Shown in pieces: positions 59,287-64,000 of a stretch of DNA of 64,000 bases. This DNA comes from Actinoplanes sp. M2I2 (GTDB taxonomy: Bacteria; Actinomycetota; Actinomycetes; Mycobacteriales; Micromonosporaceae): positions 620,001 to 684,000 of the forward strand of contig NZ_JALPVJ010000001.1 of assembly GCF_023544445.1 (NCBI RefSeq), read 5' to 3'. The notes under the pieces are model-generated. The model had not been told where the DNA came from, did no database searches, and was given only the letters and a program-made list of their open reading frames with translations. The translations under genes were made by a program, and so were the position numbers. Numbering within the stretch: position 1 is the stretch's first letter; each line of letters starts with the position of its first letter.

Positions 59287-61191
59287 CTACCCGTTCTTGG
59301 CGATGCTAATCACGTCGGACATCACTTCCGGCAGAAGTTCGGCGAGCACGGCCACGCCGTCGCGGCTCAGCACCGACTCCGGGTGGAACTGCAAACCGGC
59401 GAATCCGGTGCCCCGCAACGCATGCACGGCCGAGTCGGTGGTGTCGCGAGCGATCTCCACCCGGCCGTACGGGGTGTCCCATTCATCGACGGCCGAAAGC
59501 GCGGTGAAGCTCGAGTAGAAGCCGATCCTCCGCCGCGTCCCGAAGAGGTCGATCTCCCGGGCCAGCCCCTGATAGGGCGAGACGCGCCGGTGCAGGTCGA
59601 GCCCGAGCAGCCCGGCGAGGATCTGATGCCCGAGGCACACGGTCAGCAGCGGCTTCCCTTCCGCCAGCCGGGCCGCGACCAGCTCCCGCATCACCGCCAT
59701 CTTCGGGTCGGCCTGATCGCCGGGGTCGCCGGGCCCCGGCCCGGCGACGACCAGGTCGGCATCAGCCACGGCCACGCCGGCACCGGTTCCTGCGGCACCG
59801 GTTACGGCGGCACCGGTTACGGCGGCACTTGCCACGGCGGTATCGGTCATGGGGGTACCGGCTGGGCGCAGGGCCGTCCACGGGACGACCGTGACGGTCA
59901 GCCCGAGGGCCCGCAACTGGTGGGCCAGCATCGCGGTGAAGGTGTCCTCCGCGTCGACGATCACGGCCGTCCGGCCGGCCAGGCCGGGGACGGTGAGCGC
60001 GTCCGGCGCCCGCGAGTCGAGCCAGAAACGGGCCAGCCCCTCGTTGCGTGCGGCCAGCGCCGCCCGTACCTCCGGCGACTCCACCTCGGCGCGGGCCGGC
60101 CCGGGGCGGGACGCGACGGCGCCGAGCGCGGCCAGGACGCCCGCGGCCTTCGTGTGGGTTTCCGCGACCTCGCCCGCCGCTGTCGAGTGGCGTACGAGGG
60201 TGGCGCCGACCGGCACGCGCAGGGCGCCGTCCGGCGAGATCTCGGCCGTGCGAATCAGGATCGGCGCGTCCAGGGTCTGCCGGCCCTGGTCGTCGTGGTC
60301 GAGCAAGGCAAGCACGCCGGCGTAGTAGCCACGCCCGCGGCGCTCGTGGCGGGCGATCACCCGGCAGGCGTTCTCGATGGGGCTGCCGGTCACGGTCGGG
60401 GCGAACATGGTTTCGCGCAGCACGTCGCGCACGTCGAGGGAGCCGCGCCCGGCCAGGAGGTATTCGGTGTGGGTCAGGTGCGTCATCTGTTTGAGGTAGG
60501 GCCCGGCGACCTGACCGCCGTGCTCGGCCACGGTCGCCATCATCTTGAGCTCCTCGTCGAGCACCATGTAGAGCTCCTCGATCTCCTTCGGGTCGCGCAG
60601 GAAGTCGAGCAGGTGGCCCGAGCCGTTGCGGAAGGTGCCGCTGATCGGGTTCATCATGGTGATGCCGTCGACCACGCTGACGTGCCGCTCCGGGGTGGCG
60701 CCGACCAGCGTGCGGGTGCCGGTGTGCACGAGGAACGTCCAGTAGGTGCCCTGCTCGGCGGCGAGCAACCGGCCGAAGGCGGCTCGCGCGGCGGCGATCG
60801 GGTCGCCGTCGACCCGCGCGGTGTAGACCCGGTGGATCACGAAGTTGGCGCCCTCCCCGCGGCCGATCTCGTCGCGCAGCACGTCCTCGACGATCGCGCC
60901 GTAGGCGTCGTCGGAGAGGTCGAATCCGCCACCGCTGATGCTGAGCGGCCCGGGTGGGAAGGCGTCGAGCGGTTCCTGGCGCGACGACCGCACGACCAGG
61001 CACTCGAGGGGTGCGCCGTCGTCGACGCAGTCGAAGCCGCGCTCGGTGATCTGCCGGTAGGGGATGACGGCCAGCGTGGGGCGGCCCCGGTGCAGCGGGA
61101 TGTCGTCGAGCGAGGCAACGGTGACGACGTCGCCTTCGAGCACCTCGACGTGGTCGGCGCCGTCCCGGTGGAGCAGGGCGAAAGGCCGCAT
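59287..61191 (-). CDS. Fused anthranilate synthase (TrpE-TrpG), attenuator-controlled
   Basis: A 634-residue fusion. The chorismate-binding (TrpE-like) half covers about residues 1-410 (TMMNPISGTFRNG, GRGYYAGVLALLDHDD, RTAEISPDGALRVPVGATLV). A linker with AAVTGAA repeats (about 445-475) joins it to a class I amidotransferase (CLGHQILAGLLG with catalytic Cys; QFHPES). It converts chorismate and glutamine to anthranilate, or in PhzE-type enzymes to 2-amino-2-deoxyisochorismate. The trp attenuator upstream favours the anthranilate role. No other trp or phz genes are adjacent. ATG at 61191 follows AGAGGACC. Confidence 0.9.
   Translation of the reverse strand: MRPFALLHRDGADHVEVLEGDVVTVASLDDIPLHRGRPTLAVIPYRQITERGFDCVDDGAPLECLVVRSSRQEPLDAFPPGPLSISGGGFDLSDDAYGAIVEDVLRDEIGRGEGANFVIHRVYTARVDGDPIAAARAAFGRLLAAEQGTYWTFLVHTGTRTLVGATPERHVSVVDGITMMNPISGTFRNGSGHLLDFLRDPKEIEELYMVLDEELKMMATVAEHGGQVAGPYLKQMTHLTHTEYLLAGRGSLDVRDVLRETMFAPTVTGSPIENACRVIARHERRGRGYYAGVLALLDHDDQGRQTLDAPILIRTAEISPDGALRVPVGATLVRHSTAAGEVAETHTKAAGVLAALGAVASRPGPARAEVESPEVRAALAARNEGLARFWLDSRAPDALTVPGLAGRTAVIVDAEDTFTAMLAHQLRALGLTVTVVPWTALRPAGTPMTDTAVASAAVTGAAVTGAAGTGAGVAVADADLVVAGPGPGDPGDQADPKMAVMRELVAARLAEGKPLLTVCLGHQILAGLLGLDLHRRVSPYQGLAREIDLFGTRRRIGFYSSFTALSAVDEWDTPYGRVEIARDTTDSAVHALRGTGFAGLQFHPESVLSRDGVAVLAELLPEVMSDVISIAKNG
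59776..59851. repeat. 15-bp coding tandem repeat in the TrpE-TrpG linker
   Basis: About five copies of CGGCACCGGTTACGG (+ strand), two of them identical, encode the Ala/Thr/Gly-rich linker between synthase and amidotransferase halves. Confidence 0.85.
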
Positions 61192-61245
61192 GGTGGTCCT
61201 CTTTCGGATCTCGGCGGCGCCGGCCGAGGCCCGACCATACGAAAA

Positions 61246-61266
61246 GGCCGCCTCGGGGAGGCGGCC
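61246..61266 (-). terminator. Trp attenuator terminator (segments 3:4)
   Basis: Minus-strand GGCCGCCTC (61266-61258) and GAGGCGGCC (61254-61246) form a 9-bp stem with 3-base loop followed by TTTTCG, a real T-run, unusual for this genome. It lies 55 bases before the trpE-trpG start. Segment 3 can alternatively pair with GGCGGCC at 61297-61291 to form an antiterminator. Confidence 0.87.
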
Positions 61267-61299
61267 GCGTGGTGGGTACGCGAGAAGTATGGCCGCCAG

Positions 61300-61335
61300 T
61301 CAGGCGGGCCACCAGTTCCTTCGCGCGTTCAGCAT
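61300..61335 (-). CDS. trpL: Trp leader peptide MLNARRNWWPA
   Basis: An 11-codon frame, ATG at 61335 to TGA at 61302-61300, with two tandem Trp codons (61314-61309). Its stop sits 2-3 bases before segment 2 of the attenuator (61298-61291). Stalling at the Trp codons would cover segment 1 (about 61313-61304) and free segment 2 to pair with 3, allowing read-through; completing translation favours the 3:4 terminator. A TAGGCT 7 bases before the ATG may be the -10. Confidence 0.87.
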   Translation of the reverse strand: MLNARRNWWPA

Positions 61336-61339
61336 GGTG

Positions 61340-61927
61340 CCGAGCCTACGACCCGCCGCCGAAGCCACACCACCCCCGTCCCAGATTTCCCCCGGCCGGA
61401 CCACCGCCGGAGCCGGCTGGGGCGCGCCGCTCATGCCAAGCGCCGCGCCGGAGCCAGGCGAGGACAAACGGGTGGGAACGGAGTGGCGCGACGGGTCAGG
61501 CGAGGACGAACGAGGCCCGCCGGGTCAGGTTGGAATGAGTGGCACGCCCTGCTTAGACCAGGACGGAAGCGGCCCGCCCTCGAAGGGGAAGGGGGTGGCG
61601 CGCTGGGTTGTACGAAGACGGAGTGGCCCGCCAGGTCAGGTGGGGACGAGTGGCGCGCCGGGATCGAGTGGACACGCAGTGGCGCGCCGGCATCGAGTGG
61701 GGACGAATTGGCGTGCCGAGATCGCGTGGGGACGCAGTGGCGTGCCGGGCTCGAGTGGGGATGGAGTGGCGCACCCGGCTTGGGTGGGGATGGAGTGGCG
61801 CACTCGATCGGGTGGGGACGGAGTGGCGTGCCGGGATCGGGTGGCGACGGGGTGGCACGCCAACATTGGGTGGGGACAGAGACGTGCTGGGTCAGGTGGC
61901 AGCCGAGCGGCGCGCCGGACTGGGCGG
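61340..61927. other. Repeat-filled interval upstream of the trp leader
   Basis: No gene is supportable here. The right two thirds are a 29-bp tandem repeat (see 61611-61890). The left part (61430-61610) contains diverged related motifs (GACGGAGTGGCGCG and similar). The trp promoter must lie within the first 60 bases or so. Confidence 0.65.
61611..61890. repeat. 29-bp tandem repeat, about 9-10 units
   Basis: The landmark GTGG(G)GAC recurs at 61640, 61668, 61697, 61726, 61755, 61784, 61812, 61841 and 61870, a 28-29 bp period. Consensus core is GTGGGGACGCAGTGGCGTGCC followed by GGGATCGA. Units differ at several positions and there are no spacers, so it is a minisatellite, not a CRISPR array. 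Confidence 0.9.
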
Positions 61928-62158
61928 TCAGTCGAAGGCGGAGCGGACGGCCTTGCGGGCCCACCGCATGCGGCCGAGGGCGCAGTCGGGGTGCTCGCCG
62001 AACTCCTGGGCCACCAGCTCGGCGCAGCGGGCCTCGCCGAGGCGGTCGACCGTGGTGGTCACCGCCTCGCGGATCAGCTCAGGGGTGGGGCTCTGTGAGC
62101 GCTGCAGGCTGGAGACGAAGAGAGCTTCGGTGCGGATCGAGTCGAGGACTGTGTTCAT
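61928..62158 (-). CDS. Small hypothetical protein, 76 aa
   Basis: An unrecognised 76-residue protein (MNTVLDSIRTEALFVSSLQ...), helical, with a mid-segment ELIREAVTTTVDRLGEARCAELVAQEFG and a basic C-terminus RMRWARKAVRSAFD. This layout resembles small actinomycete helical proteins of unknown role. ATG at 62158 follows GGGAGG at good spacing, strongly supporting it over the longer frame. Confidence 0.72.
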   Translation of the reverse strand: MNTVLDSIRTEALFVSSLQRSQSPTPELIREAVTTTVDRLGEARCAELVAQEFGEHPDCALGRMRWARKAVRSAFD

Positions 62159-62868: not shown

Positions 62869-64000
62869 ATGCCACGTGACCGCTCCGTCGAGGGGCTGCC
62901 CAGCGACGGGAAGCCGCACAGCGTCGACGGGCCGCCCAGCGACGAGAAGCCGCCCAGCGACGAGAAGCCGCCCAGCGACGAGAAGCCGCCCAGCGACGGG
63001 AAGCCGCCCAGCGACGGGAAGCCGCACAGCGTCGACGGGCCGCCCAGCGACGAGAAGCCGCCCAGCGACGGCAAGCCGCGTAGCGACGGGAAGCCGCGCA
63101 AGGCCGGCGGGCTACTCAGCGTCAGCGGACTGCTGAGCAGGGCCTTCGCGGTCCTGGTCGCGCTGATCGTCGGCTCGGGCCTGGCCCAGCTGACCACCCT
63201 GCTGGTCGAGCACCGGGCCGTGCAGCAGCTCACCGCCGAGGTGCAACCGTTGCAACTGGCGAACGCCGGCCTGCACGACGCGCTGGCCGACGCGCAGAGC
63301 GGCTTGCGCGGCTACCTGCTCACCGGCGACCGGCAGTGGCTCGACGCCTACGCCGGCGCGCGCGGCGAATACTCGGTCGCCGGTGACGACCTGCGCCGGC
63401 TGAGCGGTGACCACCACGCCGACGCCACGAAGGACCAGATCGCCAAGGCCGACAGCTGGTGGGCGAACGCCGAGACCCAGCGGACCGCGCCGGCCCGTAG
63501 CGATGCCGCGATCCGGTCGGCCGAGCGGGCCGGACCCCTCTACCAGTCCTTCGTCACTGCCAACCACGAGCTCCGGGTCACGCTCGAGGCTCGTGCCGAC
63601 GGTCTTCGCGGCCGGGTCCGCACCCTGCAAACGGTGGCGGTCGTGGTCGTCGCGGTGCTGACTGTCACGGTGGCCGCATCGGCCGTCCTGATCGCCGTGC
63701 GGGCCGGTCGCCGCCTCACCCGGCCGCTGGGAGCGGTCGTCGAGACCCTCGGCCGCGTCCGCGACGGGCAGCTCGACGCCCGGGCCGACGTCACGAGCGG
63801 CCCGGTCGAGATCCGGGCCGTCGCCGAGGCGGTCAACGCGGCCGCCGAGCACAGCGAGCTCATCCGCCGCAACGAGGAACTGGTCATCGCCCGGCTCGAG
63901 GCGCTCGACACGGTCAAGACCGACTTCATGTCGACCGTCTCGCACGAGCTTCGCACGCCTCTGACCAGCATCTCGGGCTATCTCGAGCTGCTGCGCGACA
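62869..64000 (+). CDS. CHASE3-HAMP sensor histidine kinase, cut by the window end
   Basis: At least 377 residues. The N-terminus (about residues 5-80) is an 18-bp-encoded KPPSDE/KPPSDG repeat, highly charged and likely disordered. TM1 (about 91-112) precedes an extracytoplasmic CHASE3-like helical domain (LADAQSGLRGYLLTGDRQWLD), TM2 (about 253-277), HAMP and HisKA with STVSHELRTPL (His359). The ATPase domain lies beyond 64000. ATG at 62869, with only GGGA upstream. Follows the receiver gene closely. Confidence 0.85.
   Translation, partial: MPRDRSVEGLPSDGKPHSVDGPPSDEKPPSDEKPPSDEKPPSDGKPPSDGKPHSVDGPPSDEKPPSDGKPRSDGKPRKAGGLLSVSGLLSRAFAVLVALIVGSGLAQLTTLLVEHRAVQQLTAEVQPLQLANAGLHDALADAQSGLRGYLLTGDRQWLDAYAGARGEYSVAGDDLRRLSGDHHADATKDQIAKADSWWANAETQRTAPARSDAAIRSAERAGPLYQSFVTANHELRVTLEARADGLRGRVRTLQTVAVVVVAVLTVTVAASAVLIAVRAGRRLTRPLGAVVETLGRVRDGQLDARADVTSGPVEIRAVAEAVNAAAEHSELIRRNEELVIARLEALDTVKTDFMSTVSHELRTPLTSISGYLELLRD
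62893..63110. repeat. 18-bp coding tandem repeat in the histidine kinase N-terminus
   Basis: Repeated AAGCCGCCCAGCGACGAG/GGG (about ten units, some identical neighbours), interrupted twice by a CACAGCGTCGACGGG variant that marks a larger duplicated block. Encodes a Lys-Pro-Pro-Ser-Asp-(Glu/Gly) hexapeptide. Confidence 0.9.

Follow-up and report, generated by a model that had tools for sequence, protein, structure and literature searches.

On its minus strand, the window (the whole 64,000-nt stretch of Actinoplanes sp. M2I2 DNA that was analyzed) carries a gene, trpEG, whose 634-aa product joins a chorismate-binding domain to a glutamine amidotransferase domain in one chain, with a short leader upstream (Table 1). 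Direct reading of the leader confirmed the claim of the first-pass annotation that it encodes an 11-residue peptide with tandem Trp codons, and both the sequence and the computed fold place segments 2, 3 and 4 and the T-run in the order that it gave. Its positions for segments 3 and 4 were exact, but those for segments 1 (61313-61304) and 2 (61298-61291) were off by 1–2 nt from the fold. Segments 3 and 4 form a 9-bp GC-rich stem with TTTT directly after it, and the leader stop codon sits in the 1:2 loop, ahead of segment 2. The trpEG gene starts 54 nt past segment 4, with an AGAGGA-like ribosome site of its own. What is expected of a trp attenuator was found at the locus: a small leader ORF containing two adjacent Trp codons, a U-run after the 3:4 hairpin, and a position ahead of a gene for Trp synthesis or use, here a PhzE-type anthranilate synthase.

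Table 1. Features of the trpEG leader and gene in the window (all on the minus strand).
Feature	Position	Strand	Basis or remark
-10-like box TAGGCT	61343..61348	-	sequence; 3' end 7 nt upstream of the leader ATG
Leader ORF MLNARRNWWPA* (ATG at 61335, stop TGA at 61302-61300)	61300..61335	-	read from sequence; WW conserved
P0 5' arm, start-proximal helix (leader nt 10-15)	61321..61326	-	fold; between-family covariation
Tandem Trp codons TGG TGG	61309..61314	-	direct reading
Segment 1, overlapping the Trp codons	61303..61312	-	computed fold
Segment 2	61289..61297	-	computed fold
P0 3' arm, between segments 2 and 3 (leader nt 53-58)	61278..61283	-	fold; between-family covariation
Segment 3 (GGCCGCCTC)	61258..61266	-	sequence and fold
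Segment 4 (GAGGCGGCC)	61246..61254	-	sequence and fold
TTTT run 3' of the 3:4 hairpin	61242..61245	-	sequence
PhzE-type fused anthranilate synthase, 634 aa (PF00425 and PF00117), putatively controlled gene	59287..61191	-	

Other features were noted upstream of the leader. A small minus-strand ORF (61928-62158, MNTVLDSIRTEALF...) has a counterpart in locus L047, where a similar frame lies directly upstream of the leader. Between this ORF and the leader promoter lies a degenerate 29-bp tandem repeat (61617-61861, 8.6 copies, 78% matches). An 18-bp tandem repeat (62898-63097, 11.1 copies) gives a CHASE3/HAMP/HisKA protein a PSDEKP-like repeat at its N-terminus.

The domain scan of the 634-aa protein gave no match to the separate TrpE N-terminal domain. 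Its best solved relative was PhzE (3r74, 528 bits), the next being a TrpE at 60 bits. The description as a trpE-trpG fusion held in that both domains are fused, but the single chain is nearer PhzE than TrpE, and the enzyme is of PhzE type and not a canonical TrpE-TrpG. Assignment to the fused TrpEG of TrpE-clade3 (TIGR01815) was rejected (120.6 bits vs. a cut-off of 739.15), and none of the 25 NCBIfam matches listed for the protein reaches its curated cut-off. A phenazine phzE locus was also rejected: the five neighbouring proteins scanned, outside window positions 1-52 kb, were one hydrolase and four two-component proteins, with no phzD-, phzF- or phzC-type protein among them.

Two other chorismate-binding genes of the genome score higher with PF00425 (313 and 198 bits vs. 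117 for the trpEG product). The search for a second trpE that the first-pass annotation had proposed identified one of these two as a canonical trpE directly after hisI, with trpA ~3.4 kb further on. Relatives of trpEG are widespread, with a match at 1e-60 in 111 of the 150 family genomes, paralogues included, as might be expected if the main anthranilate synthase were encoded by trpEG, with the canonical trpE silent or otherwise employed. The position of the canonical gene, beside hisI and ahead of trpA, suggests a working trp operon, however, and we regard a main role for trpEG as unlikely. We take trpEG to be a second, PhzE-type anthranilate synthase gene.

Folding of the leader, a check that had likewise been proposed, recovered the classical alternatives (1:2 with 3:4 vs. 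2:3) computationally. Both 1:2 and 3:4 are present in the minimum-energy fold of the whole leader. When the first 36 nt were treated as covered and the RNA ended at segment 3, the 2:3 pairing formed (-17.8 kcal/mol); once segment 4 was included, 3:4 was favoured by ~9 kcal/mol (-30.6 vs. -21.8 kcal/mol with 2:3 forced). By computation only, this folding order is what a classical attenuator needs. The fold alone is modest evidence, because the 144-nt leader (-67.2 kcal/mol) reaches z = -2.20 against 200 dinucleotide shuffles, eight of which fold as well.

The alternative pairing is shared by relatives. In 105 of 134 distinct leaders, a segment-3 6-mer is perfectly complementary to both segments 2 and 4, vs. 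110 of 2,680 shuffles, and 133 of the 134 can form a 2:3 pairing at least as stable as -8 kcal/mol, so that refutation by loss of this pairing in orthologues failed. The mutually exclusive structures are supported by folding and complementarity, and not by within-family covariation: among 35 sequences of the window's family, none of 23 pairs showed changes in both partners, since the segments barely vary there. With a similar set of 49 sequences, RNAalifold arrived at another, non-classical structure, and none of its 15 predicted pairs covaried. Rfam gave a single sub-threshold lncRNA match (E = 0.35) in window positions 60500-62000, and no match at the gathering score in the loci of eight relatives.

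The U-runs are weak family-wide, with TTT found within 9 nt 3' of the 3:4 hairpin in 33 of the 134 leaders. These poor tails are what would be expected if the leader worked via translation coupling or factor-dependent (Rho-like) termination instead of an intrinsic 3:4 terminator. Against this stand the TTTT right behind the GC-rich stem of the window and the distance and independent ribosome site of the gene start, and we judge such a mode of action improbable.

The near-homologue set, which by choice holds the nearest homologues, comprises 112 rows, three of which are the window's own gene (L003, L004 and WIN). A WW leader was present upstream in 108 of the 109 other loci; the exception, L073, is cut by a contig end, its contig beginning inside the gene. 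The Trp codons were thus kept in all 108 of these loci that have upstream DNA. All 97 distinct leader regions, including that of the window, carry a TAnnnT box whose end lies 6–8 nt ahead of a leader start. At control starts (other mechanical ORFs of at least 200 aa in the same loci), a WW mini-ORF lay upstream of 66 of 1,921, and a WW mini-ORF with a TAnnnT box 5–9 nt before it upstream of 0 of 1,921.

A short GC-rich WW ORF lying by chance beside an ordinary hairpin, with no regulatory role, could draw on the modest shuffle z of the window leader and on the control mini-ORFs. We rejected this explanation as having next to no probability, because it is already contradicted by the control ORF starts and the comparative data, namely the near-universal WW codons, the fixed box spacing and the absence of the WW-plus-box combination from the controls. 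The genome-wide hits of the RNA model described below, which fall before Trp genes, also speak against it and for a conserved regulatory element.

Extending the near homologues by 80 loci from further out in the family and class gave 190 loci (window included), of which 148 had a WW leader with the box; 39 were without a leader, and three had a WW mini-ORF without the box. No single-Trp leader was found by the same box rule in the loci lacking a WW leader. Judged from these comparisons of sequence, the leader is conserved across several Actinomycete families. In a tree of 106 proteins, built by a quick method and midpoint-rooted for drawing, all 64 leader-bearing rows fell within one group of 72 (98% SH-aLRT), and the leader label needs four changes on the tree vs. 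33 for shuffled labels. The eight rows of this group without a leader are L073, the pair L132 and L133 on a long shared branch, and five of family f28. In the f28 genes (L185, L187, L189, L190 and L191), a TAnnnT box lies, by eye, just before an in-frame start of the gene, as if the leader and attenuator had been deleted and the gene were now transcribed leaderless. The conditions that the first-pass annotation had named as refuting its reading thus did not refute it, but wider relatives can lose the leader.

A further helix, P0, can form in the window between leader nt 10-15 and nt 53-58. Its arms change together in other families (GTACGCGA/TCGCGTAC, CGCGAAC/GTTCGCG, GTACGCAC/GTGCGTAC and CGTCGAA/TTCGACG). 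Over 78 distinct 5' arms, native P0 pairing averages -12.6 kcal/mol vs. -9.6 kcal/mol with the 3' arms of other families, and the native sum was reached by 0 of 5,000 permutations; the swapped pair nevertheless equals the native one in stability in 18% of the between-family cases, and arms rich in CGCG show partial self-complementarity. Within families f1 and f21, exchanging arms made little difference (own -13.2 vs. swapped -12.6 in f1; -12.5 vs. -12.3 in f21). In alignment A4, which is model-fitted, leans to structure and includes three opposite-strand rows, 7 of 7 P0 pairs change on both sides, with covariation above that of all 500 shuffles and of all slid versions. No P0 covariation was found within the family-level alignments, the window's own included. 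By sequence comparison, then, P0 covaries between families and not within the window's own.

P0 of at least 6 bp is possible in 69% of the 134 trpEG leaders vs. 9% of letter shuffles. The same holds for 19 of 19 leaders located before trpS, trpD, clade-3-like genes or contig ends, vs. 22% of letter shuffles, and in some of these 19 the helix takes in the AUG. We infer that P0 would close the leader after initiation or without it.

The element is of a type that has been described in Streptomyces. A trp attenuator on an anthranilate synthase gene is attributed to S. venezuelae (Lin, Paradkar and Vining 1998, as cited in PMC4833913 and PMC1262725), whose TrpEG is reported to resemble PhzE (PMC3111181); as there, the Trp attenuator of the window precedes an anthranilate synthase gene. 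The window, however, comes from a different family, and the S. venezuelae element is known here from citations and not from its leader structure. Seliverstov (2005) predicted actinobacterial trp attenuators with two or three UGG codons, and their gGCC-rGCy-GGCC alternating segments are common to the window (PMC1262725). According to its figure legend, that alignment spans the Trp codons to the terminator; because it begins at the Trp codons, the start-proximal arm of P0 falls outside it (PMC1262725).

In S. lividans TK24, trpL1 (MFAHSTRNWWWTAHPAAH) is leaderless by RNA-seq and precedes a monocistronic trpE, and trpL2 is a leaderless Trp leader peptide before a monocistronic trpS; both have hairpins, and trpL1 also a U-rich stretch, according to the account of leader peptides in PMC8079986. 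TrpL1 has WWW in 18 residues, whereas the window leader has WW in 11; the leaders of family f20 resemble the published TrpL1 (L141, MFAHSISTWWWTAHPAAH). The same source gives a -10 box of the TAnnnT kind for 93.4% of the leaderless genes of S. lividans TK24 (PMC8079986). Given these statistics and the -10 box 6–8 nt before the leader start (start site predicted from sequence), the leader transcript is probably leaderless.

Two covariance models were used to search for further copies of the RNA: R1, built from 35 trpEG leaders only, and R2, which adds trpS and trpD leaders. At E <= 0.1, R1 missed 4 of 62 source loci given as positives (L147, L166, L192 and L193). In this genome, R1 found three unlinked elements at E < 0.01, one each ahead of trpEG, of a trpD that stands alone and of a second trpS; a fourth hit had E = 0.98. 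The element at C66:166522-166619 precedes the stand-alone trpD (316 bits, TIGR01245) and has the leader MIDRMTNWWPVS*; this second trpD (L215, G000:C66:166522-167710) carries a leaderless-type WW leader and attenuator segments. The element at C27:36062-36164 precedes trpS (284 bits, TIGR00233) and has the leader MRFANLGRWLP*; this second trpS (L196, G000:C27:35064-36164) carries a single-Trp leaderless-type leader, an AUGCGC/GCGCAU closing helix and attenuator segments. Both genes have a stronger-scoring copy elsewhere in the genome, and neither hisI-trpE nor the stronger-scoring trpS is preceded by a Trp leader plus box when the same rule is applied. The description of trpEG as isolated fits the five neighbours scanned, but must be amended in that an unlinked second trpD and second trpS carry the same kind of leader.

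Across 61 family genomes, R1 gave 51 hits at E <= 0.01 (38 trpEG, 8 trpS, 4 trpD and 1 contig end). R2 gave 79 hits in the same genomes, 72 of which were assigned by position to 38 trpEG, 30 trpS (in 29 genomes) and 4 trpD. Of the other seven, four lie ahead of long ORFs with similar N-terminal residues, two extend past contig ends, and one is antisense to a trpEG element. The four ORFs (L219, L220, L221 and L222; genera g5, g12 and g14) are fused TrpEG-like genes with the same kind of leader (e.g., MTTFAFNWWWRR). The two that were scanned, L219 and L222, match TrpE-clade3 at 858 and 843 bits, above the cut-off, so the same kind of RNA also stands ahead of a second, distinct fused anthranilate synthase. 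All three elements occur together in 3 of the 61 genomes, this one included. The trpD branch is rare, being present in only 4 of the 61 genomes, and two further second trpD copies (L225 and L226) showed no such leader by eye.

The trpS branch is already known from Streptomyces, as described for S. lividans (PMC8079986). Among the eight leader peptides listed for S. lividans there is no trpD leader, whereas this genome has one (PMC8079986). No report of a trpD attenuator in Actinomycetes was found among the papers listed by searches of open-licence PubMed Central. The scattered set that contains trpD and the covarying P0 helix may be new. By its title, a 2010 report by Vecchione and Sello describes an auxiliary trpS under ribosome-mediated attenuation; the organism is reportedly S. 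coelicolor. The second trpS of this genome has a Trp leader as well; that system represents the trpS branch and not an anthranilate synthase.

PhzE-like paralogues without the leader provide a comparison. Among 41 such loci, the RNA model found no credible element (best 22 bits, E = 0.048). At five of them, eight neighbouring genes were assigned by Pfam to four class-II DAHP synthases, two isochorismatases, one PhzF-like protein and one short-chain dehydrogenase; this sample is biased, the neighbours having been selected by codon-position GC, some two dozen inspected and eight natural-product-like ones chosen by eye, and other such loci inspected show other neighbours. Such neighbours are in keeping with ADIC synthases belonging to natural-product clusters at these five loci. 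Two protein positions, chosen post hoc from the full set of alignment columns, set the groups sharply apart: position 310 holds Pro in 64 of 64 leader rows vs. 0 of 30 paralogues, and position 327 has Pro in 89% of leader rows vs. Gly in 87% of paralogues. They are leads, from alignment, to what turns a PhzE-type enzyme into an anthranilate synthase.

The closeness of the trpEG product to PhzE, an ADIC synthase according to PMC5481532, would agree with an ADIC synthase for a secondary metabolite, with the Trp leader merely linking that pathway to Trp shortage. The five neighbours scanned at the window locus, however, include no isochorismatase, PhzF or DAHP synthase, genes that some of the paralogues without a leader adjoin, and the leader clade has residues, such as Pro310, that these paralogues lack. 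The S. venezuelae relative is reportedly called an anthranilate synthase in the title of a 2008 report by Ashenafi. We consider ADIC synthesis quite unlikely for trpEG, and by analogy with this relative its product would be anthranilate rather than ADIC.

In the mechanism that we propose, a ribosome would start on the 5'-terminal AUG of the leader. When charged tRNA-Trp is scarce, it would stall at the Trp codons and cover segment 1, leaving segment 2 free to pair with segment 3, and RNA polymerase would continue into the gene. With ample Trp, the ribosome would reach the stop codon and cover segment 2, and 3:4 would terminate transcription. If no ribosome starts, P0 and 1:2 would close the leader, again favouring 3:4. 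Control of trpEG by Trp is thus predicted from sequence features. Together with trpEG, the trpD and trpS copies that carry such leaders at unlinked sites would form a scattered Trp-shortage set of duplicate genes, and coordination of the three is presumed from the shared leader.

These data suggest that (i) a ribosome-mediated tryptophan attenuator very probably controls a second, PhzE-type fused anthranilate synthase; and (ii) more tentatively, and with the odds somewhat against it, a single leaderless attenuator RNA, homologous throughout and with a P0 that covaries, has spread to duplicate Trp genes at unlinked sites (trpEG of PhzE type, trpS, trpD in a few genomes, and a fused TrpEG from a different clade in other genera) as a dispersed backup regulon, in which P0 might act as a one-shot gate: once it is closed, no later ribosome would start and the leader would be locked to termination.

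The shared RNA suggests that the seemingly isolated trpEG is a member of a small scattered Trp set joined by a common RNA switch and not by an operon. The switch may also mark those PhzE-like genes that make anthranilate for Trp as opposed to ADIC for natural products. If the P0 gate is real, these leaders would be a simple system in which to study how attenuation works when the transcript is leaderless.
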